A stretch of DNA of 64,000 bases from Pseudorhizobium tarimense (GTDB lineage Bacteria; Pseudomonadota; Alphaproteobacteria; Rhizobiales; Rhizobiaceae), in NCBI RefSeq assembly GCF_022968135.1, contig NZ_JALJRA010000011.1, positions 124,001 to 188,000 of the forward strand, given 5' to 3'. How positions within the stretch are numbered: the first letter of the stretch is position 1; every line of letters starts with the position of its first letter. The notes under the pieces were generated by a model. It saw only the letters and a list, made by a program, of their open reading frames with translations, made no database searches and was not told the origin of the DNA. A program made the position numbers and the translations under genes. This document shows, one piece after another, positions 1-14,167 of this stretch.

Positions 1-1399
1 AGGCCGGCTGATGATCGCCGACAATGATGAAAAGCTTGTCATCCCCGTAGTGCCGGATGTAAGAGCCAAGCGTTTGTAGCACGTAATCAATGGACGCCAG
101 GTACTGTCGCCTGATGCGTTCCGGATCCGACCACAGCACCGAGGGCGGATCGCCGCTTGTGGCCTGATCATCGAAGATATGCCCATCGCCGATCCTGTCC
201 CACTCGACGAGCGTCGGGATGGGGGTCCAGGGAGCGTGGCTGGAGATTAATGCGATCTCGGCCATGAGGGGCGCTTCTGACGTCTCCCGCTCCAGCCGCT
301 CGAAAGCTGAGAGCGTGTATTGGTCCGGCATTGTCACCCAGTTGAAGGGCCTGCCTTCGTATCCAAGGCTGGCGGAATCGCGAATGCTGTCATAGCCGAA
401 ATAGCCGCTTTCAGGCCAAGCCATGGTGATGGCGGGCATGATGGCGGTGGTGCGCCATCCGGCACTCCGGAACAGCGCGTTCAACGTCTTGCGGTCGCTG
501 GCGATCATTCGGTCATAGCGCGCCTGGCTGTCCGTCCACAGGCCGGAAAGCAGCGCTCCATGAGCAAGCCAGCTGAGGCCGCCGACGGTCGGCGACGTCA
601 ACCAGCCACTGCGCGCCTCAAGCCCCACGCCTCGAAGCTCCGCCTCGAACTCCCGAAGACGCGCTGCGACTGTTGGCGCGTAGCGTCCGTCTTCCAGCGC
701 AGTGCGCCCGTAGGACTCGACGAAGATGACGATGACATCCGTGTTGCGAAGCGATGAGAAGAGCGTAGCTGGCGGGATGTCGCTGATGGGATCGGACGCC
801 AGTTCCTCCTCGAAGGCGGAAAGATCCTGGACCGATTTGCGGATCATCGTGATCCTGTTGTTGAGGTAAGGCGCAAGATTGAGGGAAAGAGCCGAGGCCG
901 CCGAAGAAGAGGATAGGAGGGCGATGCAGCCGGCTGCGAACAAGATGGCGGCTGATGCCGCTGAGACCGTCCTGGCGCGCCCTCTGATCCTCCGGAAGTC
1001 TCCCAGAGACCAGAAGAACAGCAGGCAGATGGCGACCAGTAGCAAAACAGCGAGCCCGATCCACACAGCCGCTTCGCCGCGGCCCACGGATCCACTGAGC
1101 AGGTTCCAGCCGTCAACTATGATCTTTATGTCGAGGTATGGGTTGAACGGCCTTTGGAACGCGGCCCCCGTGCCGATGTCTGCCAACTTCAAGAACAGGA
1201 CGATGGCGATCAGCAGCATGGCGAAGATGCAGAAGGCGGAAAAGGCAAGCCCAGGCAGCAGGACGGCGCCGAATGCGAGCAGAAGGAGCTCAAGCGGGAA
1301 CTGCAATTCCGCGATCGAGGAGAGGCTTGCTGGATTGGACGGAAGCGTCAGAACGATCCAGGCGATCAAAAGAGCCGTAACTATTCTGAGATGCGTCAT
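1..1399 (-). CDS. Sulfatase/phosphoglycerol-transferase-like membrane protein (3' end cut by the window edge)
   Basis: This reading frame runs leftward off the window; 466 codons are present and no stop is reached. The N-terminal ~200 residues contain four or five hydrophobic segments. They are followed by an alkaline-phosphatase-fold extracytoplasmic domain of the LTA-synthase/sulfatase kind: a metal-site strand VIVIFVESYG near residue 225, an SPTVGG segment where the nucleophile Thr usually lies, and GDHQP near residue 460. Family members move phosphoglycerol or phosphoethanolamine groups onto envelope glycans or lipids, or hydrolyse sulfate esters. The substrate here cannot be read from sequence. 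The ATG at 1399 was chosen because a transmembrane segment follows directly. It is divergent from the flippase-like gene at 1515. Confidence 0.75.
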   Translation of the reverse strand, partial: MTHLRIVTALLIAWIVLTLPSNPASLSSIAELQFPLELLLLAFGAVLLPGLAFSAFCIFAMLLIAIVLFLKLADIGTGAAFQRPFNPYLDIKIIVDGWNLLSGSVGRGEAAVWIGLAVLLLVAICLLFFWSLGDFRRIRGRARTVSAASAAILFAAGCIALLSSSSAASALSLNLAPYLNNRITMIRKSVQDLSAFEEELASDPISDIPPATLFSSLRNTDVIVIFVESYGRTALEDGRYAPTVAARLREFEAELRGVGLEARSGWLTSPTVGGLSWLAHGALLSGLWTDSQARYDRMIASDRKTLNALFRSAGWRTTAIMPAITMAWPESGYFGYDSIRDSASLGYEGRPFNWVTMPDQYTLSAFERLERETSEAPLMAEIALISSHAPWTPIPTLVEWDRIGDGHIFDDQATSGDPPSVLWSDPERIRRQYLASIDYVLQTLGSYIRHYGDDKLFIIVGDHQPA

Positions 1400-1514: not shown

Positions 1515-2468
1515 ATGTTTCGTATTCTTGGTGCCGTCTTGGGTATTGCAGCGTTGGTGACGGTCGTCGTCATCTCTGATCCCCCAGAAATCTGGCGCCG
1601 TCTTGCAGCCATCCCTTCTGTCTATGTCTTCATAGGACTCGGGCTGGTCCAGGTGCAGATCATCTTGTCGGCCGTCAGATGGCGCTTCACGGCGCAGCGC
1701 CTGCGGCAGGGTCTGAGTCTTCGTCAGGCTGTTCGCAACTATTATCTCAGCTCCTTCCTCAATCAGACCTTGCCGGGTGGCATGGCCGGTGATGCGGTTC
1801 GGGCGCTGCGCCATCGCGGGGAATTGCCTGGGGGCTGGAAAGTGCCTGCGCTTGTCGTCGTGTTGGAGCGGGCCGTGGGGCAGGGCGTTTTTCTGCTTAT
1901 CGCGGGCGTGGGCTTGGTTGCGTGGCCGCTCCTCGTGGTACGGCGCTTGCCCGATTCCCTCGAAGGGGTGTTGAGCGCGGCCTATGTGCTCGTGGGCTTG
2001 ATCTTCCTCGCCGCCATCGTGTTGTTCCGATTTCCACCAAGAGCTTTCGCGGCACGCATGGCCTCGTTCAAGCAGGCTCTTTATGAGGTGTTCGTCGAGG
2101 GCGGCGCCTGGAAGGTCCAGTCGATTCTCGGCCTTTTTATCGTCGGGAGCTATATCGGCATGTACATGCTGGCGTCGGTGGCAGTCGGCGCGCCATTGCC
2201 GGCTCTGGCCAGCGTAACGGTGGTTCCGCTGTGCATGCTCATGATGCTTGTTCCTGCAACCGTTGCGGGATGGGGCGCCAGAGAAGCGGCGGCCGCCGGG
2301 CTCTGGCCACTTTTCGGCTATGCCGGGGCCGATGGCGTGGCTGCCAGCATTTTCTACGGCGTGTTGTCGCTCGCGGGTGCTGCGCCGGGTCTGGTCGTCG
2401 CGGGGCTGGCTCCTCTGCCGGGAAGGAGAGCGACGCAGGAAGATCATGATCCCTCCAGCCGCGCATAA
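1515..2468 (+). CDS. Flippase-like integral membrane protein (UPF0104 / LPG-synthase transmembrane family)
   Basis: This 317-residue protein has about eight hydrophobic segments and the family pattern of an early NQTLPGGMAGD loop and a later GWGAREAA motif. The family covers the membrane half of lysyl-phosphatidylglycerol synthase, AglD and YbhN, and is thought to move or handle lipid-linked substrates; no catalytic synthase domain is attached here. It overlaps the FkbM methyltransferase gene tail-to-tail by 25 bases. Its position between a sulfatase-like protein and a CDP-alcohol phosphatidyltransferase suggests a role in exporting a lipid-linked product of this cluster, which is inference. 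A second member of the broad family lies at 34050. Confidence 0.75.
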   Translation: MFRILGAVLGIAALVTVVVISDPPEIWRRLAAIPSVYVFIGLGLVQVQIILSAVRWRFTAQRLRQGLSLRQAVRNYYLSSFLNQTLPGGMAGDAVRALRHRGELPGGWKVPALVVVLERAVGQGVFLLIAGVGLVAWPLLVVRRLPDSLEGVLSAAYVLVGLIFLAAIVLFRFPPRAFAARMASFKQALYEVFVEGGAWKVQSILGLFIVGSYIGMYMLASVAVGAPLPALASVTVVPLCMLMMLVPATVAGWGAREAAAAGLWPLFGYAGADGVAASIFYGVLSLAGAAPGLVVAGLAPLPGRRATQEDHDPSSRA

Positions 2469-3193
2469 ACGTCCCCGGACTTCGCCGTAGTCTTAAGTGC
2501 CGAAAGCTCCTTCCGGATTTCGATTGGTGTCAGCCAGCGCGAATGTGCGAAATCATGGTCTTCGCCTGCGGTGCGGTTGAACACGTAATTGCCCAGCCGT
2601 TCAAGCTCGTCCACCACCTGGAATGCGACATCCATGGCGGCGGGAACGTATTCAAACGCGATGATCGGTATCGGTTGGGTGAGGCCGCGCAGGATCTCTG
2701 CCTCTGCTCCTTCAACGTCGATCTTGCAGAACTTCGGACAGCCGTGGTCGGCAATCATCTGATCAATCGTGATCCGTTCGACCTTCTCTACCCGGTCCCA
2801 CGACACCTGCTCAAACCCGCTGGTTTGCGTGACGGAAGAGATCCACGATGAGGAGGTTGTGGTGACGGTCGGATGCCGAGTAGAGATATGCAGGTCGACG
2901 GTGCCGGCGACCTTCCCTACTGCCTTTCGCACCAGGGTCAGATGTGGATGATCGATCCTTCGACTGATGAAGTCGGCAAAATCCCGCTGAGGCTCCACGG
3001 CGATAACCTTGGCTCCGAGCTTCAACAGCGTTCGTGAGCGGCTGCCGACATGCGCGCCGATATCGAAGGCCAGATCGCCTGGGGTAACGAATTGCCGATA
3101 GAACGTCTGCAGCTTATGCCGGCGCCAGGGCTGGCCATAGTAGATTACGATCGAGCGCCAGAGGCCGAACGCCCGCCAGAACTCAGGCGACAT
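2444..3193 (-). CDS. FkbM-family SAM-dependent methyltransferase
   Basis: Predicted 249 residues. The SAM-binding loop DIGAHVGSRSRTLL lies about 50 residues in, VIAVEPQRDF follows, and the family's KIDVEGAEAEIL motif sits near two thirds of the length. FkbM enzymes usually O-methylate sugars or polyketides. The ATG at 3193 is preferred over an in-frame start 48 bases upstream because it gives an 11-base overlap with the preceding phosphatidyltransferase gene and starts just before the first conserved helix. It is the last gene of a leftward unit ribA-like, CDP-alcohol transferase, fkbM. The substrate is unknown; a glycosylated metabolite or lipid made by the same cluster is the natural guess. 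Confidence 0.8.
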   Translation of the reverse strand: MSPEFWRAFGLWRSIVIYYGQPWRRHKLQTFYRQFVTPGDLAFDIGAHVGSRSRTLLKLGAKVIAVEPQRDFADFISRRIDHPHLTLVRKAVGKVAGTVDLHISTRHPTVTTTSSSWISSVTQTSGFEQVSWDRVEKVERITIDQMIADHGCPKFCKIDVEGAEAEILRGLTQPIPIIAFEYVPAAMDVAFQVVDELERLGNYVFNRTAGEDHDFAHSRWLTPIEIRKELSALKTTAKSGDVYARLEGS

Positions 3194-3992
3194 GGCTAGT
3201 CGTCCCGCCTGTCCGCCAGAGATAGACAATATCCACCGCAAAAGAGAAGAGTAGCGAGAGAAGCGCCAAAGCGAGTATTATACCTGCAAATGGGGGCGTG
3301 ATCGCGGGAACGAGTGCAGCGCAAAGGGCCACGCCCTGCGAAACGCAGATGGCCTTGCGGCGCATAGACTCCGGCAAGTCGCCCGAAATTCGCGTCAGGG
3401 CCCATTGCGCACCGATGAAAGCGTAGCGCATCAGGCCGATTAGCAAGACCCAGGCTCCCGCCTTGCCGAGGAGCGCTGCTCCGGCCGCCAGAAGAAGGAT
3501 CAGCAGCGCATCCGTTTCCATATCGAAGCGAGCGCCGAAGCGGGAAGACGTGCCGCTTCGGCGTGCGAGATAGCCGTCGATACCATCAAGGGCGAGCGCT
3601 ACTGCCGCACAGCCGGCTACCGCCCAGTGCAGGTGTTCAGCAGCAGGATCACTAAACCCGCCGGATCCAAGGATCAGGCCGCCTATGGCCGCTGTCGCCG
3701 CTGCGCGGAACGTGGTGACGACGTTGGCGGGTCCATAACGAGGGTGGGCGTGAGTAGGCAGTTTGGCGAACGCAAAGATCGAGATGCCCGCATAGATGAA
3801 AAGCGCATACCAGATCGCGTTTCCGACGTTGCCGAGCATCGTCTCGAGAGCGTGGACCAGGACTGCGATGAGGGTTGCGCCAAACAGGAACGCTATCGCG
3901 GCCTGTGCATAGAGAGCCAAAGGCGCGCCGCCGTCGGAATGTGGTCGATCCCGCGGCAGATTGAGACGGGATAAGCCCAAATGCTCAGCCAT
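3183..3992 (-). CDS. CDP-alcohol phosphatidyltransferase family membrane enzyme
   Basis: This 269-residue protein carries an exact CDP-alcohol phosphatidyltransferase signature, DG-x2-AR-x8-G-x3-D-x3-D, beginning at DGYLARRSG in the middle of the chain. About six hydrophobic segments surround it. Such enzymes transfer a diacylglycerol-phosphate (or another CDP-activated group) to an alcohol acceptor in the membrane. The gene overlaps the 3' end of the GTP cyclohydrolase II gene by 8 bases and the start of the fkbM gene by 11, so the three are almost certainly co-transcribed. The acceptor alcohol is not identifiable; linkage to a riboflavin/pterin-type enzyme is unusual for this family. Confidence 0.85.
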   Translation of the reverse strand: MAEHLGLSRLNLPRDRPHSDGGAPLALYAQAAIAFLFGATLIAVLVHALETMLGNVGNAIWYALFIYAGISIFAFAKLPTHAHPRYGPANVVTTFRAAATAAIGGLILGSGGFSDPAAEHLHWAVAGCAAVALALDGIDGYLARRSGTSSRFGARFDMETDALLILLLAAGAALLGKAGAWVLLIGLMRYAFIGAQWALTRISGDLPESMRRKAICVSQGVALCAALVPAITPPFAGIILALALLSLLFSFAVDIVYLWRTGGTTSHVA

Positions 3993-5127
3993 CGGAGAGT
4001 TCCTTCGCCGCGCGCGACAGCACCTCGATGTCGAGCATGTGCCCTGCGCGCAGGGTCTTGGTCCGCAGGTATTCGACGTTGTCTGCCGTGATGCGGCCGG
4101 TTACCGGAACCCTGCCGTTTACGCTGATGCCGCCCGCAAGCAGAGCCGAGACCTTGGTCGGGTTGTTGGTGAGAAGCGCGACGCTGTAGACCTTGAGACC
4201 GCGCAGCATCGCAACTGCCGCGTCGTATTTGCGCTCATCGGCCCCGAAGCCGAGCTCCGCATCCGCGTCGATCGTATCAAGGCCATCATGCTGGTAGCCA
4301 TAGGCGCGCATCTTGGCACCGATTCCGGTGCCTCTTCCCTCCTGGTCGAGGTAGAGCAGCACGCCTCCTCCAAGCTCCTTCAGGCTCGTCAGGCCGTTTC
4401 GCAACTGGTCGCCGCAGTCGCACTTCAGCGATCCGCAGAGATCCCCGGTGAGGCAGGAGGAGTGGATGCGGACCGGTACAGGGTTCAACGTATCGGGATT
4501 GCCGACGATGATGGCAACCTGATCCTTCTGGGCAAGCCCGCCGCGGAAGACCACGAATTTGCAATCGCCGAAGTCACGAAGGGGCACGGGTGTGCGCACA
4601 ACCACCTGGAAGTTCTGCGCCAATCTTCGGCTCTTCGGCATGTCCATGTGGTGGAGCTTGGCGCAGGCATCGAAAGTGCGGGAGTGACGTGGGATTGCGA
4701 CGCACATCATCGCGGGCAGCAGAAGCGCCAGTTGCGCCACTTCTCCCGCCATCTTCATCTGTGGGCTGGCTCGACGCCAAGCGGAGGGAGCCTTCGCATC
4801 TCGGTCATAAGCGAGCGCCGAGGCCGCGGCGAAATCCAGGCCTCGCCCTGCGAAGGCCACGCCATCAGTCGAATGGAGGCCAAGACGCGAGGCGCGATGA
4901 CTCGAGAGGTAGAGAACCTCTTCACCCATCGCTGCTCGCGCGAAGCGTTGGTATTCCGCCGGCGAAACAGCATCGAGTGCCAGCGCTGCCACGGCGTCGT
5001 TGGTGGCTTCAAGAATGACCGGTCGGCCGTAGCGCAGCTCGGAGACTGCTCGTTCCAAACGAGTAGCAGAATCTTCGACCTCATAGCTGGCCTGGTCGGC
5101 CACCCAGATATTGTGTGAAACATTCAT
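3985..5127 (-). CDS. GTP cyclohydrolase II with degenerate RibB-like N-terminal half
   Basis: Predicted 380 residues. Residues ~210-380 are a GTP cyclohydrolase II domain: zinc cysteines C225, C236 and C238 in the family spacing, DQEGRG at 261, Tyr276 in KMRAY and Asp-Glu-Arg at 297-299, matching the catalytic Tyr and Arg of E. coli RibA. The expected product is the diaminopyrimidine ribotide that feeds riboflavin and related compounds. Residues ~20-140 align in pattern with dihydroxybutanone-phosphate synthase (RibB) but lack its acidic DDEDRENEGD motif, so that half is probably not a working RibB. The ATG at 5127 has GAGGAG upstream. The neighbourhood points to a secondary pathway and not housekeeping riboflavin synthesis. 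Confidence 0.85.
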   Translation of the reverse strand: MNVSHNIWVADQASYEVEDSATRLERAVSELRYGRPVILEATNDAVAALALDAVSPAEYQRFARAAMGEEVLYLSSHRASRLGLHSTDGVAFAGRGLDFAAASALAYDRDAKAPSAWRRASPQMKMAGEVAQLALLLPAMMCVAIPRHSRTFDACAKLHHMDMPKSRRLAQNFQVVVRTPVPLRDFGDCKFVVFRGGLAQKDQVAIIVGNPDTLNPVPVRIHSSCLTGDLCGSLKCDCGDQLRNGLTSLKELGGGVLLYLDQEGRGTGIGAKMRAYGYQHDGLDTIDADAELGFGADERKYDAAVAMLRGLKVYSVALLTNNPTKVSALLAGGISVNGRVPVTGRITADNVEYLRTKTLRAGHMLDIEVLSRAAKELSDG

Positions 5128-5306
5128 GACAGTCTCCTCGACGCTGTACATGGAGCGGATCACGACGAGGTGCAGATGCTGGATCTTTTGGAAATGCGTC
5201 AATTAAACGTGATAGTTGCCCTCATACTCTTCAAAAAATCCGGACCCTTGCCGTTGACGTTATTCCTCCTAACTCCGCAACGCAAACAGGTCGGGGAGGG
5301 CGTATT
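5128..5306. promoter_or_regulatory. Divergent promoter region of the pteridine-like cluster
   Basis: This 179-base AT-richer gap separates the leftward ribA-like unit from the rightward dehydrogenase unit, so both transcription starts must lie here or overlap the first codons. I see no FMN riboswitch (the conserved RFN core is missing) and no EcfG-type GGAAC element. A TTGACG hexamer is present on the + strand but has no good -10 partner. No regulator gene lies inside the cluster. Confidence 0.5.
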
Positions 5307-6308
5307 GTGACAGTCGAGCAACCGGCTCCTGTGAAGTCGAGCCGGGAAGGGGCGCGATCCTTGTGGATCGAACGGGCCGGACAGGCTGCGATCCGCACCG
5401 AGACTCTCATACCACTTCAGCCGAGCCAGGTGACGGTTGAAGCTCTGTTCAGCGGGATCAGCCGAGGAACGGAATCTCTGGTTTTCCACGGACGGGTTCC
5501 GGAGACGGAATTCGAGCGCATGCGCGGCCCCCATCAGGAGGGCGAGATGTCGTTCCCGGTGAAGTACGGCTATGCGATGGTCGGGACAGTGTTGGATGGC
5601 GCTGGCGACCTGGCCGGAAGACGCATCTTTTGTCTCCACCCGCATCAGGACAGGTTCCGGATCGGGCGACAAGAGGTTCACGTCCTGCCGGACGCTCTTC
5701 CGCCGGAGCGCGCCGTGCTGGCCGCCAACATGGAGACGGCGCTGAACATCGTCTGGGATGCGGGCGTGTTGCCCGGTGACCGTGTCGTTGTTTTCGGTGC
5801 CGGCATAGTCGGGCTTCTCACTGCCTACATTGTCTCGCGCATTGGCGGAGCGGAAATAACCTTATGCGACATCTCGCCTGATAGGCGGGACATCGCCCGG
5901 GCGCTGGGCCTGCCGTTCTGCGAACCTTCGGATGTTCCTGACGACTGCGATGTCTTGATCAACGCCTCGGCCTCGCCCGCAGCGCTAGCGAACGCCCTTG
6001 CGCATGCAGGTTTCGAAGCTCGGATCATCGAGGCGAGCTGGTATGGCGAGACCATGGTGGAGATACAATTGGGACGAGCCTTTCATTCGAAGCGGCTCTC
6101 GATCGTCAGCTCCCAAGTGGGCGCCATCGCTCCTCAACGCCGGGGCCGTTGGACCTTTGGACGCCGCTTGGCGAAGGCGCTGGAGTTTCTCCGGGATGAA
6201 AGGCTCGATACGCTGATTTCGGGCGAGACGCCCTTTGCAGCCATCGCTGCAGCTTATGGGCAGATCTTGGAAAGCCCCGAAACTCTTTGCCACCGAATTC
6301 GATATTGA
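5307..6308 (+). CDS. BchC-like zinc-type alcohol dehydrogenase (MDR superfamily)
   Basis: This 333-residue medium-chain dehydrogenase has an N-terminal GroES-like domain with SGISRGTE (as in BchC and other cofactor-modifying members), KYGYAMVGTV, and a Rossmann dinucleotide fold beginning VVVFGAGIVGLL near residue 155. The structural-zinc cysteine cluster is absent. It probably oxidises or reduces an alcohol or ketone on a cofactor-like substrate using NAD(P). The GTG start at 5307 is preceded by GGGAGGG at good spacing. It opens a tight rightward operon with the PTPS-like, glycosyltransferase and methyltransferase genes; the next gene starts 13 bases after its stop. Confidence 0.8.
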   Translation: MTVEQPAPVKSSREGARSLWIERAGQAAIRTETLIPLQPSQVTVEALFSGISRGTESLVFHGRVPETEFERMRGPHQEGEMSFPVKYGYAMVGTVLDGAGDLAGRRIFCLHPHQDRFRIGRQEVHVLPDALPPERAVLAANMETALNIVWDAGVLPGDRVVVFGAGIVGLLTAYIVSRIGGAEITLCDISPDRRDIARALGLPFCEPSDVPDDCDVLINASASPAALANALAHAGFEARIIEASWYGETMVEIQLGRAFHSKRLSIVSSQVGAIAPQRRGRWTFGRRLAKALEFLRDERLDTLISGETPFAAIAAAYGQILESPETLCHRIRY

Positions 6309-6321
6309 AGAGGAAACTGTC

Positions 6322-6720
6322 ATGTTCGCAGTAGAAGTTCGCGACCACATCATGATCGCGCACAGTCTCCCGAGGCCTGTCTTCGGCCCGGCCCAGGGCC
6401 TTCATGGGGCGACTTTCGTTGTGGATGCCGCATTCTTCACGGAGAACCTGGATGAAAATGGTCTGGCGGTCGACATCGGATTGGCCACTGAGGTTCTCCG
6501 CGAAGCTCTGAAGCCTCTGAACTATCAGAACCTCGACGACGTCGAAGAATTTACCGACAAGGTTACGACGACCGAGTTTCTCGCAAAGTACATCTTTGAC
6601 CGCCTGCGTGACGCGATCGGGGCCGGGCGGCTCGGAGAAGGGAGTCAGCGTATCCGCCGGCTGAAGGTCATGCTGCATGAGTCCCACATTGCGCGTGGGT
6701 GGTATGAGGCCGAGCTTTGA
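6322..6720 (+). CDS. 6-pyruvoyl-tetrahydropterin synthase / QueD-fold protein with altered active site
   Basis: This 132-residue protein has the length and order of a PTPS/QueD domain: AHSLPRP (His14), GLHGATF (His28), VDIG, a TTTEFLAKYIFDRL helix and the substrate-anchoring Glu120 in LHES. Key residues differ from active enzymes. The third zinc His of the HGH motif is Ala30, the catalytic Cys position four residues before His28 is Ala24, and the His of the catalytic Asp-His pair is replaced in LNYQNL (Tyr68). It may catalyse another reaction on a pterin-like ligand or only bind it. The ATG at 6322 follows GAGGA. It sits between the dehydrogenase and glycosyltransferase genes in one operon. 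Confidence 0.75.
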   Translation: MFAVEVRDHIMIAHSLPRPVFGPAQGLHGATFVVDAAFFTENLDENGLAVDIGLATEVLREALKPLNYQNLDDVEEFTDKVTTTEFLAKYIFDRLRDAIGAGRLGEGSQRIRRLKVMLHESHIARGWYEAEL

Positions 6721-7754
6721 GCTCGACGCTTTACTTCGCCTACCCGGGCGATCTGCAGACGCGGACCGGCGGCTATGGTTATGACCGGCGGATCATTGGC
6801 GCCCTACGAGACGCGGGTCGGGAGGTCCATCTTCTGCCGCTGGGGGATGGCTTTCCGGATGCGCCAGATCTCACCGCCGCAGAAGCGGTGCTCGCCGAGG
6901 TGCCCGAAGGAAGTCTGCTTCTGATAGACGGCCTGGCGTTCGGCGTGCTGGATCAATGGGCCGAGCAAAGAGCAGCAAAGTTTCGGCTGTTCGCGCTCGT
7001 GCATCATCCGCTTGCACTGGAGACGGGGCTGTCACGAGCGGCCCAGGCTGATCACGCTGCTCGGGAGCAGCGTGCACTGAGCTTTACGCGGGGTGTCATC
7101 GTCACCTCAGAGGCCACTGCAAAGGAGCTGGTGGAGAACTACGGAGTCGCTGTCGGAGATGTCGTCGTTGCTTTGCCAGGAACAGATCCTGTTCCACTCG
7201 CGGTTGGGCGAGGTGCCGAGCCGCTAATCCTGAGCGTGGGATCTCTGACCCAGCGGAAGGGGCACGACGTCCTCATTGCGGCACTTTCTTCGCTGAAGGA
7301 CCTGCCCTGGACCTGCCGGATCGTCGGCAGTCGAGAGCTTGATCCAGCGGTTGCCGCGAAGCTGAAGGAGCAAATCGTGGCGGCCGACTTGTGGGAGCGC
7401 GTCACTCTCGCGGGCGAGGTGGAGGATGTACGCCCCGAGTTTGCTCGTGCCGATCTCTTTGCACTCGCGAGCCGATACGAGGGATATGGCATGGTCTTCG
7501 CGGAAGCCCTGGTGCATGGCCTGCCGGTGGTGGGGTGCGCAACGGGAGCGGTTCCGGACGTGGTGCCGGAAGCTGCCGGAATCCTCGTTGAGCCAGATGA
7601 TCCTGAAGCCTTTGCAGCGGCACTGGCCCGATTGTTGACGAAGCCGGACGATCGCACCGCGATGGCCGATGCTGCAGCGGTTGCCGGTGCAGCGCTACCC
7701 TCGTGGGAAGACACCGCGGCCGTGATTGCCGAATTGTTGGAGAAACATCAATGA
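6717..7754 (+). CDS. GT4-type glycosyltransferase (GT-B fold)
   Basis: This 345-residue glycosyltransferase group 1 protein has an N-terminal acceptor domain with the GGYGYDRRI loop, then LSVGSLTQRKGHDVL, and the donor-site E-x7-E motif EGYGMVFAE followed by GLPVVGCATGAVPDVV. Family members transfer a sugar from a nucleotide donor with retention. The TTG start at 6717 overlaps the PTPS-like gene's stop (TTGA), implying translational coupling, and the stop overlaps the next gene's ATG (ATGA). There is no signal peptide, so it acts in the cytosol or at the inner membrane face. The acceptor is unknown; a pterin- or pyrimidine-derived metabolite is suggested only by the neighbours. Confidence 0.88.
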   Translation: MSSTLYFAYPGDLQTRTGGYGYDRRIIGALRDAGREVHLLPLGDGFPDAPDLTAAEAVLAEVPEGSLLLIDGLAFGVLDQWAEQRAAKFRLFALVHHPLALETGLSRAAQADHAAREQRALSFTRGVIVTSEATAKELVENYGVAVGDVVVALPGTDPVPLAVGRGAEPLILSVGSLTQRKGHDVLIAALSSLKDLPWTCRIVGSRELDPAVAAKLKEQIVAADLWERVTLAGEVEDVRPEFARADLFALASRYEGYGMVFAEALVHGLPVVGCATGAVPDVVPEAAGILVEPDDPEAFAAALARLLTKPDDRTAMADAAAVAGAALPSWEDTAAVIAELLEKHQ

Positions 7755-8539
7755 GCGGCTTCGGCAAGGATTGGCTGGCACTGCGGGAGCCGGTTGACCG
7801 ACGGTCTCGGGATGCCGCGCTGCTCGATCGCGCAGTGCACGCAGTTCAACGTCAATCGCCGGCTTCGGTGTTAGATATCGGCTGCGGCACAGGCTCCACA
7901 TTTCGCACGCTGGCGCCAAAGCTGCGAGGCGCGGTCTCCTGGACACTGTTCGATTACGACGAGGATCTTCTTGCGGAGGCGGAGCGGCGTCACGCTTCCG
8001 ACGACATCACGTTCGTGAATGGCGATCTTACGCAGATCTCGGCATTGCCGCTGGACAGGGTGACGCTGGTGACTGCCTCTGCTCTCTTCGATCTCTGCTC
8101 TCATGCCTTCATGAAGCAGTTCGTGGAGACGCTCGCTTGGCAACGCGCCGCGATCTACGCAGCACTGAACTATGACGGCGAGATGCACTGGTCGATGGAG
8201 CACCCCGCGGACGAAGCCGTAACGAAGGCCTTTAATGCGCACCAGCTGACAGACAAGGGTTTCGGTCCCTCCGCCGGGGCCGACGCCTGGCGCGTTCTGA
8301 AGGAGACGCTGGAGATGTGTGGCTTCTCGGTTAGCATCGCCGAAAGCCCTTGGCTGATGGGCCGCGACGATGCAGACCTTCAGCGGCAGTTTCTGGATGG
8401 CGTCGCTCGCGCCGTGTCTGAAGAAGGCAGCGTTGACGCAGCCGAGCTTCGCGACTGGCATCAGTCCCGGCTGCAATCGATTTCGCAGACCGCAAGCTTA
8501 TGCCGGGTGGGTCACCAGGACGTCCTGGCCTTGATCTGA
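7751..8539 (+). CDS. Class I SAM-dependent methyltransferase
   Basis: This 262-residue cytosolic protein has a classical motif I at residues 40-48 (VLDIGCGTG), an acidic strand-2 end in WTLFDYDEDLL, and NGDLTQI as motif II. The remaining half is specific to the family and not informative. It is the last gene of the rightward operon, coupled to the glycosyltransferase by an ATGA overlap. Its 3' end overlaps the convergent RibD-like gene by 42 bases. A methylation step on the cluster's product is likely; N-, O- or C-methylation cannot be told from sequence. Confidence 0.85.
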   Translation: MSGFGKDWLALREPVDRRSRDAALLDRAVHAVQRQSPASVLDIGCGTGSTFRTLAPKLRGAVSWTLFDYDEDLLAEAERRHASDDITFVNGDLTQISALPLDRVTLVTASALFDLCSHAFMKQFVETLAWQRAAIYAALNYDGEMHWSMEHPADEAVTKAFNAHQLTDKGFGPSAGADAWRVLKETLEMCGFSVSIAESPWLMGRDDADLQRQFLDGVARAVSEEGSVDAAELRDWHQSRLQSISQTASLCRVGHQDVLALI

Positions 8540-9322
8540 GGTCTCAAGTGACGCTGCCGGACGCCGGAAATCGCAGTCGAAGACGATGTCCGTGCCGATG
8601 TTGTAGACATTCACGGTCGGACGGCGCGCTTCCGACAGTCGATCGACGGGGGCAAGGCTGATGCCCATTGGTCCCGACCCAATGATGATCGGCGCGATGG
8701 CGACGTGAAGGCGATCGACGAGGTCCGCATCGATGAAGCGGGCAATGGTCTTTGCACCGCCCTCGATAAGCACGCTTGTGAGGCCGCGCTCGGCAAGGCA
8801 ATCGAGAATGTCTTTTGGATGCAGACCTTCGCCACAGCGGGGAAGCCTGACGACCTCGTGGCCCAGCCTGCGGGCCAGGATGTCATCGGCCTGAACCACC
8901 AGCACGGGTGCGCCACCATCCGTCAGCATCTTGGACTGCTGAGGCATGCGGCCATTGCAGTCGATGACGACGCGGACAGGATTTTCGCCAGGGACTGCAC
9001 GTACCGAAAGACTCGGATTGTCGGCAACGACGGTGCCGACCCCAACGACTACGGCATCAACAAGGGCGCGACAGCGGTGGAGATGCGAGATGCCGTCGCA
9101 GCCGGATACATCCTGCGCATCTCCGGTTGTCGTGGCAACCCGCCCGTCCAGAGACTGCCCGACCTGCGCCAGCACCAACGGCCTGCCGCGCCGCGCAATC
9201 GGCTCGTAGAGCGATAGGCTTGCCTTGTCATCGTTCACCGGCCGCGTGATCTGCCGCTGACCCTGCTCGCGCATTGATCTAAGATAGTCCCACGTCGCGC
9301 CCGTCATCTTTGCCGATTGCAT
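8498..9322 (-). CDS. RibD C-terminal-type reductase (dihydrofolate-reductase fold)
   Basis: This 274-residue protein is a stand-alone RibD reductase domain: RPLVLAQVGQSLDGRVA, DAVVVGVGTVVADNPSLSVR and LIEGGAKTIARF are the NADPH- and substrate-binding segments. No zinc deaminase domain (H-A-E, PCx8C) is attached. In riboflavin synthesis this domain reduces the ribose of the deaminated pyrimidine to ribityl; relatives act in toxoflavin and methanopterin-type pathways. The ATG at 9322 follows GAGGCGGG. Its convergent overlap with the methyltransferase gene and the GTP cyclohydrolase II nearby tie it to the same pathway. Confidence 0.85.
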   Translation of the reverse strand: MQSAKMTGATWDYLRSMREQGQRQITRPVNDDKASLSLYEPIARRGRPLVLAQVGQSLDGRVATTTGDAQDVSGCDGISHLHRCRALVDAVVVGVGTVVADNPSLSVRAVPGENPVRVVIDCNGRMPQQSKMLTDGGAPVLVVQADDILARRLGHEVVRLPRCGEGLHPKDILDCLAERGLTSVLIEGGAKTIARFIDADLVDRLHVAIAPIIIGSGPMGISLAPVDRLSEARRPTVNVYNIGTDIVFDCDFRRPAASLETSDQGQDVLVTHPA

Positions 9323-9482
9323 GTCCCGCCTCGCCTATGGGAGCAACACTAAAGTCCTGACAGGCAGATGATGTTCCAGAGCGTGCTGCTGTTTCAGCAT
9401 CCAAATCTGCCAGGGTGCTACAAGTCCTACGGCTTGCTTAATCCAGTGGATCTCAAACCCGCGCGTTGCCTGGGCCAGAAGG

Positions 9483-10253
9483 CTAGCGCAGATCCAGCAG
9501 ATAAGTGTTCTCGGAACGGGATTTGTCAAAGGCGGATGGTATTATTTCAGCGAACAGAAGCGCTTCACCCTCTGCCGGTGCCTTCGCAAGAAGATTGCCG
9601 TCCGGCGCGGCGATGCGTGACAGGCCGGCATAGGCGAAGTTCTCGTCCTTGCCGCAATGGTTGACGTAGGCAACGAAAACCTGGTTCTCGAATGCACGAA
9701 CGCGGATCATGTGCTCGGCGATGAACCGGCCCGACCATCCGACCGGAAGTGCGGTTGGAACAACAATCAGATCGACGCCTGCCAGCGCCAGCCGCCGAAC
9801 ATTTTCTGGAAATTCAACATCATAGCAGATCAACATGCCGAGCTTCACGCCATCGACATTGGCTATGACCGCTTGCGGATCTTCCGGGCAGAACCACTGC
9901 CTCTCATAGGGGCCATAGAGATGGGACTTGCGGTAGACGGTCGTTTGACCCTGGCCATCGGTAAGCAACGCGCTGTTGTAGACGGTGCTGCCTACCGCCT
10001 CCGCGAACCCTGCGACAATCGTCAGGCCGTGACGGCGAGCAATCTGCGAGAGCCGTTCCGGCCCGGCGCCCTCTGCGGGCGAGGCGAGGGAAGGAAAGCG
10101 ATCACTTGCGCCATAGCCTGTGAGCGCCAGTTCCGGCGTAATAAGGAGCTTTGCGCCTTCGGCCGCGGCCTTTTCGGCGGCTGCAGCGATCCTCTCGAGG
10201 TTCGCGCCGATGTCTCCGAGCACGCACTGCATCTGGAATGCCGCAATCTTCAA
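9483..10253 (-). CDS. Carbon-nitrogen hydrolase (nitrilase-superfamily amidase)
   Basis: This 256-residue protein has the complete nitrilase-superfamily triad: Glu41 in ITPELALTG, Lys109 in YRKSHLYG and nucleophile Cys143 in LICYDVEFPE. The size fits aliphatic or omega-amidases and N-carbamoylputrescine amidases, not true nitrilases. The TTG start at 10253 overlaps the stop of the upstream permease gene (TTGA) behind GAGAGG. As the last gene of an operon with an agmatinase-family hydrolase and a polyamine-type ABC transporter, it probably deamidates a carbamoyl or amide intermediate of the imported compound. The precise substrate is inference. Confidence 0.85.
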   Translation of the reverse strand: MKIAAFQMQCVLGDIGANLERIAAAAEKAAAEGAKLLITPELALTGYGASDRFPSLASPAEGAGPERLSQIARRHGLTIVAGFAEAVGSTVYNSALLTDGQGQTTVYRKSHLYGPYERQWFCPEDPQAVIANVDGVKLGMLICYDVEFPENVRRLALAGVDLIVVPTALPVGWSGRFIAEHMIRVRAFENQVFVAYVNHCGKDENFAYAGLSRIAAPDGNLLAKAPAEGEALLFAEIIPSAFDKSRSENTYLLDLR

Positions 10254-11044
10254 CGGTCCTCTCCCATGGCGCCCAGGAGCTTCGGAAGATCGCCGAACCG
10301 GGCGATGAGGCCGAACACGAGGGCCGCGATGACCAGGAAGAGCACGGTCACCGATGCCATCGTCGGCGTATAGCCGTAGCGGAGAGCATTGAAGATCTTG
10401 ATCGGCAGCGTTTCCATCGTGAAGCCGACCGTCATGTACGCGACGATGTATTCGTTGAGCGACAGAACGAAGGCGAAGGCATAACCGGAAACCATGTAAG
10501 GCAGGATCAGCGGCAACACGACGGTTCGGAAGATCGTCTGATCGTCGGCGCCCATTGTGGCGGCCGCTTCAACCAAAGAGCGGTCGATTGCGGAAAACCC
10601 GAGCGAGAGGGTGACCAGCGGAAGCGTCACGAAGAAGATCGCGTGGCTGATGACGGCCGTCCAGGGCTGCCCGTAAAAGCCGCTCGTTGCCCAGAAGGTC
10701 AGGAGGCCAAGTGCGGTGATGACCGGCGGCAGCGTGAACGGCGCAATCCCTAAAAGCTGGAAGATATTTGCCCAGGGCGCAATACGCCGCCACAGGAACC
10801 AGGCGAGCGGCAGTGCCACGAGCAAGGCAAGTGCTGCAGAAAGGGCCGCCAGCGTCAGCGATGCAAAGAGGGCGTTGCGCCAATCGTCGTTCAAGAAAAT
10901 TTCGCCATACCACGCCAGCGAAAATCCCTGCGGGGGAAAGGCAAGCGTTTGTTTCTCGTTTATCGACACGCCCGCGACCACGATCAGCGGTAGCGCCAGG
11001 AACAGACCAACAGCGAAGAAGAAGAGGCGGCGCAAGAGGATCAT
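10250..11044 (-). CDS. ABC transporter permease, PotC-type
   Basis: This 264-residue inner-membrane permease has six predicted transmembrane segments and the EAA loop EAAATMGADDQTIFRTVVLPLILP that contacts the ATPase. It is the second permease of a polyamine/opine/thiamine-type importer. The ATG at 11044 overlaps the stop of the first permease (ATGA). A longer open frame continues upstream through the first permease gene, but that part is out of frame with real coding sequence and is not protein-like. It acts with the ATPase, other permease and binding protein of this operon. Confidence 0.9.
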   Translation of the reverse strand: MILLRRLFFFAVGLFLALPLIVVAGVSINEKQTLAFPPQGFSLAWYGEIFLNDDWRNALFASLTLAALSAALALLVALPLAWFLWRRIAPWANIFQLLGIAPFTLPPVITALGLLTFWATSGFYGQPWTAVISHAIFFVTLPLVTLSLGFSAIDRSLVEAAATMGADDQTIFRTVVLPLILPYMVSGYAFAFVLSLNEYIVAYMTVGFTMETLPIKIFNALRYGYTPTMASVTVLFLVIAALVFGLIARFGDLPKLLGAMGEDR

Positions 11045-11892
11045 GCTGCCTCCTTCTGACGTCCGGCGTAGACGGCGAGCCCCACCAACGAGAGCGAGAC
11101 CAGGACTAGGAAGACCGCCATCGCCGCTGCGAATGGCATGTTGGACTGATAGATCGCCTGGTCGGTGATCAGCACCGAGAGTGTCCAGTGTTGCGGCCGG
11201 CCCAGAAGCTGCGGCAGGAGATAGGAGCCGAGCGCGAAGATGAAGACCATGATCAAGGTCGCCAGGATGGTGTTTCGCAACGCGGGGACGATCACGGTGA
11301 AGAAGGCGCGAACCGGTGATGCGCCCAGTGTCCGTGCTGCTTCGGTCAAGGTCGGGTCGAGCCGGACCAGCGCGGGATAAAGAACCAGCACGGTGTACGG
11401 CAATGCTTGGTAGGTCATCGCCGTCATCACTGCGCCAAAGCTCGGCGTCAGGGCCTGCGCATCCATCAAGCCGAGCATCGCGAACAGGTTCGTGATGCCG
11501 GCGGTGCGTGAGAGCAGCGTCGACCAGGCAAAGCCAATCATCACTTCCGACAGGGAGAGGATCGACAGCAGGACGACCAGCCAGCGGATCTGCGTTCCTC
11601 TCGACGAGCGGGACAGGAGATAGGTGAATGGCACACCGATCGTCACGCAGGCGGCAGCTACGGCCATAGCCAGGAAAAGGGAAAAAGCAAGTACCTTGCC
11701 AAAGAAGAGGCTGAGGAAGCGGCCGTAATTGTCGAACACGAATGCCGGCTCGTAGAAGCCGCCCTGCTGCCGCTCGAAGAACGATACAGCGATCATTGTG
11801 GCGAACGGGATGACGAAGAACACGACGAGCATGGCCGCTGGGAACATCAGCGGGCCGTAATCGGGGAAGCGCTGCGGTGGCTCCCGTCTCAT
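11041..11892 (-). CDS. ABC transporter permease, PotB-type
   Basis: This 283-residue protein has six hydrophobic segments and the EAA-loop TEAARTLGASPVRAFFTVIVPAL. The N-terminus MRREPPQRFPDY is short and cytoplasmic. It is the first permease of the importer, overlapping the ATPase gene upstream and the second permease downstream by 4 bases each, so stoichiometric expression by coupled translation is expected. Family resemblance is to spermidine/putrescine-type permeases, which also serve opines and other cationic amino compounds. Confidence 0.9.
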   Translation of the reverse strand: MRREPPQRFPDYGPLMFPAAMLVVFFVIPFATMIAVSFFERQQGGFYEPAFVFDNYGRFLSLFFGKVLAFSLFLAMAVAAACVTIGVPFTYLLSRSSRGTQIRWLVVLLSILSLSEVMIGFAWSTLLSRTAGITNLFAMLGLMDAQALTPSFGAVMTAMTYQALPYTVLVLYPALVRLDPTLTEAARTLGASPVRAFFTVIVPALRNTILATLIMVFIFALGSYLLPQLLGRPQHWTLSVLITDQAIYQSNMPFAAAMAVFLVLVSLSLVGLAVYAGRQKEAA

Positions 11893-12923
11893 CGGGCCAG
11901 TACCACGCTCGTCTCCGGATCGAACCGAAGCCCGACGGTCTGTCCGATTGTGACATCCGGTCTGGCGCGGGGGGAGGCGACCGCAATGATCTGCTGTCCG
12001 CCGGCCTCGATGAAGGTCTCCACCGTGCCACCCAGGTCGCGGATGAAGGCGACGGTGCCGGTGACACTGCTTGCGTCCTCCGTCACGATCTGCACGTCTT
12101 CGGGCCTAACGGAGATCGTACCGGCTTTTGCGCCGACCAGCGAAAAGCCTTCAATGGTCGATCCGAAGATCGAGGCCTGGCCGCGATCGTCCGCCTGGAA
12201 GGGGATAAGGTTTGTCGACCCGATGAAGTCGGCGACGAAGGAATCTGCCGGTCGCCTGTAGATATCGACTGGCGCGGCGGCCTGACGAATCTCGCCGCCG
12301 TTCATCACGACAACGGTATCGGCCATTGTCATCGCCTCGCGCTGATCGTGCGTCACAACGATCGTGGTAATGCCGAGCCGCTGCTGTAATTGACGCAGTT
12401 CGACCTGCATTGCTTCACGCAGCTTTGCATCGAGCGCCGAGAGCGGCTCGTCGAGGAGAAAGAGCTTTGGCGAGATCGCAAGCGCGCGGGCAATGGCGAC
12501 ACGCTGCCGCTGACCCCCGGAGAGCTTGCCGACTGACCTGTCGGCAAAGCCCGGCAGGTGGATCATCGCCAGCAGCTCGTCGACGCGCTTCTTCTGCTCG
12601 GCCTTGTCGATGCCGCGGATCCGCAGGGCATAGGCAATATTCTCGCCCACCGTCAGATGCGGGAAGAGCGCGAGCGACTGAAACACCATCCCTAGATTGC
12701 GTTTGTGCGTCGGGATCTGGGTGATGTCCTCTCCACCCAGCGCGACCGATCCGGTCGTCGGCAGATCAAGGCCGGCGATCATGCGCATCAAGGTCGTCTT
12801 GCCGCAGCCGGAAGGGCCGAGAAGACAGACGAAGGTGCCGTCCGGCACCGAAAGGCTGACATCTTTGACGGCTTTGAACGTGCCGAACTGCTTCGTCACA
12901 TTGCTGAGGATAAGTCCGGACAT
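11889..12923 (-). CDS. ABC transporter ATP-binding protein, PotA-type
   Basis: This 344-residue ATPase has Walker A GPSGCGKTT, Q-loop MVFQSLALF, signature LSGGQRQRVAIARAL, Walker B LFLLDEPLSALDAKLR and the switch His in VVTHDQ. A C-terminal TOBE-type domain containing SVRPEDV (~residues 240-344) follows, as in PotA/UgpC-like importers. The ATG at 12923 begins directly before the first strand; an in-frame start 54 bases earlier would add an unlikely Ser/Arg-rich tail. It energises uptake through the two downstream permeases. Confidence 0.92.
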   Translation of the reverse strand: MSGLILSNVTKQFGTFKAVKDVSLSVPDGTFVCLLGPSGCGKTTLMRMIAGLDLPTTGSVALGGEDITQIPTHKRNLGMVFQSLALFPHLTVGENIAYALRIRGIDKAEQKKRVDELLAMIHLPGFADRSVGKLSGGQRQRVAIARALAISPKLFLLDEPLSALDAKLREAMQVELRQLQQRLGITTIVVTHDQREAMTMADTVVVMNGGEIRQAAAPVDIYRRPADSFVADFIGSTNLIPFQADDRGQASIFGSTIEGFSLVGAKAGTISVRPEDVQIVTEDASSVTGTVAFIRDLGGTVETFIEAGGQQIIAVASPRARPDVTIGQTVGLRFDPETSVVLAR

Positions 12924-13007
12924 TGCTTTACGCTCGGCTCTTAGAGGCCATGGGCTTGAGGATGCAAGAGAAGCCACTCCTCCGATGGGAGGAGTCGCTT
13001 GCGCAGG

Positions 13008-14096
13008 TCAGCCCGCGATCATTTCCGTCCACTTCTGGTTCAGGAAGTCTGACCGTTCCTGGTACATCTCGTAGCGGGGGATGATCGGCTCGATGTCGGA
13101 GGATACGGCGTTGAACTCCTCGGCCGTAAGGTCCAGCAGGTCTCGCTTGACGGTTGGCGAAGTGCCAACCTTGCGCGACAGCACCGCCTGGATCTCCGGC
13201 TGGCACATGTAGTTGATGAAGGTATGTGCTTCTTCGACCTTCTCTGAAGCGCGGGAAAGGGCCCAACTGCCGGAATCGCGAATTCCGCCTTCCTCCGGGA
13301 AGGTGGAGCGAACGGGATGGCCATCTGCGGCGGCAAGACCGGTTACGTCGTGGTAGTACTGGCCCATCGGGATTTCGCCCGACTTCAGAGCCTGCTCGAA
13401 TTGCGCTTCGTCGCGGTACCAGAGGCGGACGTTCGGTTTCACTTCCGCGAGCTTGTCGAACACCTCCAGGATGCCTTCTTCGGTGTCAAGAATATCCGTT
13501 CCGCCGAAATAGGTCCTGGCCGTTACTTCCAACAGGAAGGAGTTCGAGACGAGGGCGAGCAGGCCCAGCTTGTCGGCATTCGCCGCATCCCAAAGGGCTG
13601 ACCAGGAGGTCGGCGCTTCGGGATAGACGTCGGTGTTGGTGACGAGCGTGATATACCATGACACGGCGCCGATGCCCGCGAAGCGACCGTCCGGATACTT
13701 GTTGACGAAGGTATCGATCAGGCCGGAGACGTTGGGGATCTTCGACATGTCGAGCGGAGCCCAGAGGTCGGTGCTCATGCCCTTCAGCAGGGCCACCTGC
13801 GACATCATCGACACGTCGGCGGGCGCCTGGCCAGCACGGGCTGCCTGTTCTAGCTGTACGAGCCAAGCCTCGCCAGTCGGTTCTGCGACCGATTCAACGG
13901 CAATGCCCGTCGCCTTGGTGAATTCCGGGAAAATGTTCTTGTCGAACGAGTCCTTGAAATATCCGCCATAGACACCGACCTTCAGCGACCGGTCCTGCGC
14001 CCGCAGGATCGATGGCATTGCCAGCATGGAAGCGCCTGCCAGGCCGGCGCCCAGCACCGCGCGGCGGCTGGCCGCCTTGTTCAGGATCTCACGCAT
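13008..14096 (-). CDS. Periplasmic solute-binding protein, PotD-type, probably Tat-exported
   Basis: Predicted 362 residues. The N-terminus has a twin-arginine style leader (ASRRAVLGAG followed by a hydrophobic stretch and cleavage after LRAQ), then the mature domain LKVGVYGGYFKDSFDKNIFPEF typical of polyamine- or iron/thiamine-like binding proteins. A late SGSWALSRASEKVEEAHTF segment matches the family hinge. The ATG at 14096 has AGGAG six bases upstream; an adjacent GTG at 14099 is a weaker alternative. It lies between the agmatinase-family gene and the ATPase gene in one operon and sets the specificity of the importer, which I cannot assign beyond a cationic or guanidino compound. Confidence 0.88.
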   Translation of the reverse strand: MREILNKAASRRAVLGAGLAGASMLAMPSILRAQDRSLKVGVYGGYFKDSFDKNIFPEFTKATGIAVESVAEPTGEAWLVQLEQAARAGQAPADVSMMSQVALLKGMSTDLWAPLDMSKIPNVSGLIDTFVNKYPDGRFAGIGAVSWYITLVTNTDVYPEAPTSWSALWDAANADKLGLLALVSNSFLLEVTARTYFGGTDILDTEEGILEVFDKLAEVKPNVRLWYRDEAQFEQALKSGEIPMGQYYHDVTGLAAADGHPVRSTFPEEGGIRDSGSWALSRASEKVEEAHTFINYMCQPEIQAVLSRKVGTSPTVKRDLLDLTAEEFNAVSSDIEPIIPRYEMYQERSDFLNQKWTEMIAG

Positions 14097-14167
14097 CACT
14101 TTCTCCTTTGTTTGGCGGCAGGTTCTGCGCCTGCGCGGCCGGTTCCCACTCTTGTCGTTACTTTACG

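Follow-up and report, generated by a model that had tools for sequence, protein, structure and literature searches.

The early steps of riboflavin synthesis and of the archaeal F420 pathway use RibA or ArfA, ArfB or BrbF, and an archaeal-type reductase. At the deformylation step archaea use ArfB, whereas rhizobia use BrbF, which had originally been annotated as a creatininase but was then proven to be a formamidase for riboflavin; in BrbF-bearing bacteria, the enzyme that supplies riboflavin synthesis with the formyl pyrimidine is described as undiscovered (PMC9478397). Here we describe a block of genes in a 64,000-nucleotide stretch of the Pseudorhizobium tarimense genome (contig NZ_JALJRA010000011.1, positions 124,001 to 188,000; hereafter the window), which has the same first enzyme families but adds to them a PTPS-fold protein, a dehydrogenase, a GT4 glycosyltransferase, a methyltransferase and a CDP-alcohol transferase. 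We propose that the block probably encodes a dedicated pathway from GTP to a pterin-type compound, branching from the first steps of riboflavin synthesis, whose product would be methylated, glycosylated and probably membrane-associated.

The toxoflavin and roseoflavin branches have in common with the block a departure from the products of GTP cyclohydrolase II and RibD-type enzymes, and methylation; the PTPS-fold protein, dehydrogenase, GT4, CDP-alcohol transferase and flippase are not known from those branches. QueD and PTPS-I to III belong to the same PTPS family as the cluster protein and share with it the pterin-binding glutamate and two of the three zinc histidines, but the motifs differ. 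SCO6650 of Streptomyces coelicolor matches the cluster PTPS over its whole length. S. coelicolor, whose strain A3(2) is expected to carry the cluster, also encodes SCO6655, a GTP cyclohydrolase homologue that makes a formyl pyrimidine, with Met in place of Tyr. A cluster with this Met105 is present in two other Streptomyces, whereas the alphaproteobacterial RibA2 differs from SCO6655 in having Tyr105. The first-pass annotation of the window, made from the letters alone, recognized no named system of this composition; we found none either, and searches of an open-access library gave no paper whose title or abstract describes the cluster, subscription papers being mostly outside that search.

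A conserved gene set

Loci were first chosen by the dehydrogenase only. In the class sample, 17 of 144 alphaproteobacterial genomes contain a match, P. tarimense included; the 16 others were combined with the best 80 of 319 stretches encoding a relative in a scan of named genomes, and the 96 loci were searched with the window proteins as queries. GT4 and PTPS were each found in 94 of them, the methyltransferase in 93, RibD in 83 and the CDP-alcohol transferase in 80, followed by the flippase (65), RibA2 (54) and FkbM (49); the sulfatase protein cluster is represented in 74 and cytochrome b561 in 47. Within the class sample, PTPS, GT4 and methyltransferase genes lie beside the dehydrogenase in 15 of the 16 other genomes, the single exception being L036 (genome G028), in which the dehydrogenase is alone.

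A phylum sample was selected with the PTPS-fold protein, which matched 32 of 397 Pseudomonadota genomes (∼8%), again including P. tarimense, and 20 of the 32 were fetched. The dehydrogenase is adjacent in all 20; the methyltransferase, GT4 and RibD are each present in 19, RibA in 11, the CDP-alcohol transferase in 10, the flippase in 9 and a creatininase in 6. Eight of these loci come from family f173, which is Halomonadaceae-like (among named organisms, Halomonas and Vreelandella give the best matches to the PTPS of L206, and Chromohalobacter ranks lower). Five f173 loci (L206, L208, L211, L214 and L224) hold the fullest set, namely CDP-transferase, dehydrogenase, PTPS, GT4, methyltransferase, flippase, RibD, RibA and creatininase. 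Across loci, six of the encoded proteins diverge in a correlated manner (r 0.60–0.81 over 21–47 chosen loci, with the species tree not controlled for). Co-occurrence in relatives had been suggested as a check on the block, and in both the dehydrogenase- and the PTPS-selected loci the genes lie together and are not scattered. The view of the block as one conserved gene set, beyond chance, is supported.

One small genome, G135 (1.6 Mb, 26% GC over the fetched 19 kb), has dehydrogenase, PTPS, GT4, methyltransferase, RibD and RibA2 genes in locus L038; neither CDP-alcohol transferase nor flippase was detected at that locus. A creatininase and an AhpC/TSA peroxiredoxin adjoin its cluster.

Plasmid records also matched, 20 with the PTPS and 30 with the dehydrogenase. 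Eighteen plasmid regions were read; by tblastn, 15 of them encode the dehydrogenase and 17 the PTPS. Streptomyces, Microbacterium, Thiodictyon and haloarchaea all have named plasmids with the cluster set, which therefore extends from soil-dwelling and halophilic bacteria to halophilic archaea, and Methylosinus trichosporium OB3b carries the cluster on plasmid pOB3b1. Streptomyces fungicidicus has, in a single run, CDP-transferase, dehydrogenase, PTPS, GT4, methyltransferase, creatininase and GTP cyclohydrolase II genes. In Microbacterium the flippase-like gene sits between the methyltransferase and RibD, and it is likewise inside the cluster in Halomonadaceae-like genomes; in Thiodictyon, a gammaproteobacterium, the core is followed by cytochrome b, RibD and CDP-transferase. 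Haloarcula GH36 combines CDP-transferase, GTP cyclohydrolase IIa, dehydrogenase, PTPS and methyltransferase, with GT4 close by, while Natrarchaeobaculum (L131) has the dehydrogenase and GTP cyclohydrolase IIa, with no PTPS detected. In three Streptomyces plasmid loci (L126, L128 and L136) an SCO6650-like PTPS gene stands by itself, with cupin and MBL-fold genes close by and no cluster around it.

Enzymes of the block

The window RibA2 keeps the zinc ligands Cys54/65/67 as well as Tyr105 and Arg128 (E. coli numbering), which presumably have the roles generally given to them in GTP cyclohydrolase II. All five are present in 66 of 68 rows from relatives (L034 and pieces of 150 residues or fewer left out), and the two others, both from Streptomyces, have Met105. 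RibA2 has ∼170 additional N-terminal residues; a vestigial RibB appeared likely by eye but was rejected, at an hhalign probability of 0.3%. On two haloarchaeal plasmids GTP cyclohydrolase IIa adjoins the dehydrogenase in place of GTP cyclohydrolase II, the Haloarcula copy scoring over the NF002587 cut-off. The IIa enzyme is a protein family distinct from GTP cyclohydrolase II, with separate models, and PF00925 has no match in four archaeal control genomes. Because this distinct family adjoins the haloarchaeal dehydrogenase, a GTP-opening start is independently indicated, and the predicted opening of GTP as the first step is well supported at the level of sequence.

Genes of the creatininase family, to which the formamidase BrbF belongs, lie beside 11 of 135 loci scanned. 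One is near each of the two Streptomyces cyclohydrolases, as would be expected if these Met105 enzymes stop at the formyl product. A rule by which a creatininase is present only where Tyr105 is lost was rejected, 6 of the 66 Tyr105 rows also having one. The alphaproteobacterial RibA2 proteins have Tyr105 and, where both were seen, no adjoining creatininase, except at L038; there is none near the window cyclohydrolase, and the one creatininase-family match in the P. tarimense genome is on contig C16.

The RibD_C protein contains the reductase domain only and matches archaeal and bacterial reductases. It scores 112.5 of the 156 bits set for the bifunctional RibD model TIGR00326, short of a call as deaminase plus reductase, and 117.7 of 186 bits with the archaeal reductase model, also under the cut-off. 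Since a deaminase domain is missing, the 2-amino group should stay, and the product would be of the pterin rather than the lumazine or flavin type.

The match of the PTPS-fold protein to SCO6650 (structure 3d7j) spans query residues 1–130 with 140 bits (E 2.9e-40), and the common motif FGPAQxLHGATF places the cluster protein among the SCO6650-like proteins. We take SCO6650 to be a T-fold protein without zinc or triad and without PTPS activity; its structure is solved, but we know of no function for it. Among 133 rows the catalytic Cys (C27) has been replaced by Ala in 127 and by Glu in 5, and at the third zinc His (H33) 127 rows have Ala and 5 have His; Asn takes the place of the triad Asp (D70) in 106, and Tyr that of the triad His (H71) in 115. 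All rows but one (132) retain the pterin-binding Glu and two zinc His, and the remaining row, L121, is a fragment. PTPS-I to III have the motifs CxxxHGH, CxxxxxHGH and ExxHGH, and the function of PTPS-V is described as unclear (PMC5041015); the bacterial cluster rows fit none of the three motifs.

The dehydrogenase had been called BchC-like, but it scores 64.9 bits with the BchC model TIGR01202 (cut-off 291) and is not BchC. Its near-invariant set comprises S52, G54-T55-E56, Y87-G88-Y89, H113, E143, S244-W245, H260 and Q270; by eye, the usual catalytic zinc ligands are apparently absent and no cysteine-histidine zinc site is evident. In the CDP-alcohol transferase, D136xxD139G...G153xxxD157xxxD161 is present in 99 of 99 rows, and we take DxxDGxxAR(8)GxxxDxxxD to be the CDP-alcohol phosphatidyltransferase motif. 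Solved-structure searches with this protein and with the methyltransferase gave weak, unspecific relatives and did not indicate a substrate for the CDP-alcohol transferase.

Genes for cytochrome b561, YceI, OpgH-like and sulfatase-fold proteins recur beside the block; b561 and YceI are partners. YceI-like genes are near the cluster in L023, L029, L031, L034, L035, L116 and L208–L210, and cytochrome b561 is near many others. An OpgH/MdoH-like membrane glucosyltransferase is encoded near the cluster in L024, L033, L116, L124, L213, L217 and L219–L225, divergently beside the dehydrogenase in several.

Layout of the locus

The window is part of contig C2 in a 4.86 Mb rhizobial genome, and its closest protein relatives are in Pseudorhizobium, Neorhizobium and Rhizobium halophilum. 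The first-pass annotation had assigned eight families to positions 2444..9322, and Pfam and NCBIfam confirmed every one of them in its place (Table 1). The extent, however, was too small and missed two genes, the flippase-like and the sulfatase-fold gene, both of which are members of the cluster neighborhood. The sulfatase-fold gene was found by tblastn (60% identity), PF00884 having been detected on its relative in L041; the P. tarimense protein has no NCBIfam match, and calling it LtaS/OpgB-like is a guess. Genes within each unit overlap or are 13 bases apart, and the RibD_C gene converges on the methyltransferase gene with an overlap of 42 bases.

An Rfam search of 7 loci found no FMN or other riboswitch near the cluster. 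Its single match was a group II intron in L123, and the divergent intergenic region, which is included in L119, had no match. The nitrilase-like gene was ruled out as a cluster member, being in only 4 of the 96 loci. It is followed, within 9483–14099, by what appears by eye to be an ABC transporter (two permeases, ATPase, binding protein), and these genes are not cluster members.

Table 1. Features of the gene block and its immediate surroundings, in window coordinates.
Feature	Coordinates	Strand	Basis or remark
Sulfatase / alkaline-phosphatase-superfamily membrane protein	1..1399	-	Cut at left window end; whole gene G000:C2:123813-125399
Flippase-like membrane protein (LPG_synthase_TM, PF03706)	1515..2468	+	Pfam
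FkbM-family methyltransferase	2444..3241	-	Pfam/NCBIfam
CDP-alcohol phosphatidyltransferase, complete catalytic motif	3183..3992	-	Pfam PF01066, 65.5 bits, cut-off 22
GTP cyclohydrolase II (RibA2)	3985..5127	-	NF006456, over its cut-off; start 5127 read from open reading frame
Divergent intergenic region between two units, 179 bases	5128..5306		Gene layout; putative promoter region
Medium-chain dehydrogenase, "zinc-binding alcohol dehydrogenase"/BchC-like	5307..6308	+	NCBIfam
PTPS-fold protein, SCO6650 kind, signature FGPAQxxHGAT	6322..6720	+	Pfam
GT4 glycosyltransferase	6717..7754	+	Pfam
Class I SAM-dependent methyltransferase	7751..8539	+	Pfam; start read from open reading frame
RibD_C-type pyrimidine reductase without deaminase domain, 274 aa	8498..9322	-	Pfam/NCBIfam
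Nitrilase-like gene	9483..10253		Pfam; neighbor, not cluster member

Proposed pathway and alternatives

In the pathway that we propose, RibA2 would open GTP to 2,5-diamino-6-ribosylamino-4(3H)-pyrimidinone 5'-phosphate, as its active-site residues suggest; the Streptomyces Met105 enzyme and the haloarchaeal GTP cyclohydrolase IIa would probably yield the formyl form, which a creatininase-family deformylase could open. RibD_C, judged by its domain content, would reduce the sugar side chain without deamination and so keep the pterin 2-amino group. The dehydrogenase and a re-purposed PTPS-fold protein might then form the pterin-type ring or modify its side chain, with decoration by the methyltransferase and GT4. 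The CDP-alcohol transferase may link a lipid phosphate to the product or to its polyol phosphate, and carrying it outside the membrane, or finishing it there, may be the task of the flippase-like protein together with the sulfatase-fold or OpgH-like protein. All of these substrates are putative. As a candidate, the pathway is well supported by the conservation of the genes over two domains of life, by the different first enzyme in archaea and by the active-site residues of the first enzyme; we infer its ring chemistry, product and function. A place at the membrane is suggested by the complete CDP-alcohol transferase motif and by the recurrent cytochrome b561, YceI, OpgH-like and sulfatase-fold genes.

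Several observations weigh against this proposal. The CDP-alcohol transferase went undetected in 11 of the 16 class-sample and 10 of the 20 phylum-sample loci, and the flippase was detected in none of the 16; for this reason the membrane functions may be dispensable or may form a part of their own. GT4 is apart from the core, or was not found, in L108, L116, L120, L135, L137 and L215. The haloarchaeal PTPS proteins (L120, L132, L133, L134 and L137) have Glu for the catalytic Cys and all three zinc His, and by these residues would be a different subfamily in the same gene context. The cluster creatininases of L122 and L206 score best with the model of the mycofactocin protein MftE, at 141 and 105 of 172 bits, and weakly with that of ArfB, at 37 and 19.5 of 180 bits, and 6 of the 8 loci with both creatininase and cyclohydrolase rows have the Tyr105 form, which should need no deformylase. 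A survey of relatives covered 40 genomes, P. tarimense included, of which 25 have the cluster PTPS; counting cyclohydrolases of >150 bits as canonical, 7 of the 25 have no canonical GTP cyclohydrolase II anywhere. In six relatives (G155, G156, G159, G160, G161 and G163), all without a two-domain RibBA, the cluster cyclohydrolase is the sole PF00925 match.

A tentative identity for the product, which we regard as a possibility only, is a pterin-headed membrane lipid. A reduced ribityl-pyrimidine phosphate would be closed to a pterin, methylated, glycosylated, joined to CDP-diacylglycerol (CDP-archaeol in haloarchaea) and flipped outward, where it could partner cytochrome b561 and YceI-type proteins in redox reactions or light absorption.

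Among the alternatives, it is conceivable, although we doubt it, that the block consists of two co-regulated modules with no shared product, a pterin module (RibA2, RibD_C, dehydrogenase, PTPS and methyltransferase) and an envelope-lipid or glucan module (CDP-alcohol transferase, GT4, flippase, FkbM, sulfatase and OpgH-like). The many loci in which the CDP-alcohol transferase is undetected are consistent with this, as are Rhodobacteraceae SC52 and Halobellus, where dehydrogenase, PTPS and methyltransferase genes occur with no GT4 or CDP-alcohol transferase found nearby (the Halobellus stretch stops at the record end). However, Alpha- and Gammaproteobacteria, Actinomycetota and haloarchaea all have examples in which the core comes with a CDP-alcohol transferase, and the placement of the flippase-like gene, which in Microbacterium and the Halomonadaceae-like genomes has the methyltransferase on one side and RibD on the other, argues for a single set.

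It is unlikely that the product is instead a soluble, secreted secondary metabolite with no membrane anchor, whether one resembling toxoflavin or roseoflavin or a pterin glycoside of the cyanobacterial kind. Toxoflavin synthesis starts with GTP cyclohydrolase II, a RibD-type enzyme and a methyltransferase, and both the patchy distribution of the cluster and its plasmid copies would suit such a metabolite; the recurrent membrane proteins would not. The 1.6 Mb AT-rich genome of G135 is also an odd carrier for an optional antibiotic, although neither CDP-alcohol transferase nor flippase was detected there.

Improbable too is that the block serves as an additional source of riboflavin or secreted flavins, with RibA2 and RibD_C topping up flavin and the other genes being unrelated. 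A second PF00925 gene is present in the P. tarimense genome, as the first-pass annotation had proposed to look for, but the copy is not canonical: it encodes a RibBA (G000:C11, L002:718-1965, + strand) with a cyclohydrolase II domain without zinc cysteines, as is also the case for the PF00925 copy of L034. Because that domain has lost its zinc cysteines, no canonical GTP cyclohydrolase II other than RibA2 is left in this genome, as in some relatives, which favors the flavin reading; the cluster RibD_C is moreover 28% identical to the housekeeping RibD on contig C48 (363 aa, with a deaminase-type N-terminal half by eye). Of the 25 cluster-bearing relatives, 16 have a canonical cyclohydrolase within 4.3 kb and 2 only elsewhere, and in the six relatives named above the cluster enzyme may also serve riboflavin. 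Against a flavin supply, the most constant partners in the cluster are non-flavin genes, and G135 has two canonical GTP cyclohydrolase II genes, of which one belongs to the cluster and the other lies outside it, a clean separation. Rhizobia also use BrbF for riboflavin (PMC9478397), and a creatininase-family gene is present in P. tarimense. No deaminase domain, RibB, RibH or RibE is encoded among the ten gene products at 1515–10253, to which the search for RibH and RibE was confined. The earlier view that the block is not plain riboflavin synthesis is thus supported.

That the cluster PTPS is simply the QueD (queuosine) or folate enzyme of the organism, with annotation drift in the rest, is hardly credible: it is the sole PTPS of its genome and automatic annotation names proteins of this kind 6-carboxytetrahydropterin synthase, but an assignment to QueD or PTPS-I was rejected since the CxxxHGH motif, the Cys-His-Asp triad and one zinc His are lost and the QueD score is 37 bits, far under the cut-off of 89, no QueC scores over the cut-off in that genome (20.9 of 22 bits), and 11 of the 25 cluster-bearing relatives have a second, higher-scoring PF01242 protein elsewhere in the genome.

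A dedicated GTP-to-pterin-type pathway remains the reading that we prefer. About 8% of the sampled Pseudomonadota (32/397), together with Streptomyces, Microbacterium and haloarchaea, carry this gene set for an uncharacterized product. The set suggests that many "6-carboxytetrahydropterin synthase" annotations are wrong. The cluster provides a concrete context for SCO6650-type proteins and for the neighboring formyl-pyrimidine-forming cyclohydrolases and creatininase-family proteins. Should the product indeed be a pterin-headed membrane lipid, bacteria and archaea would share a new kind of lipid and redox cofactor.

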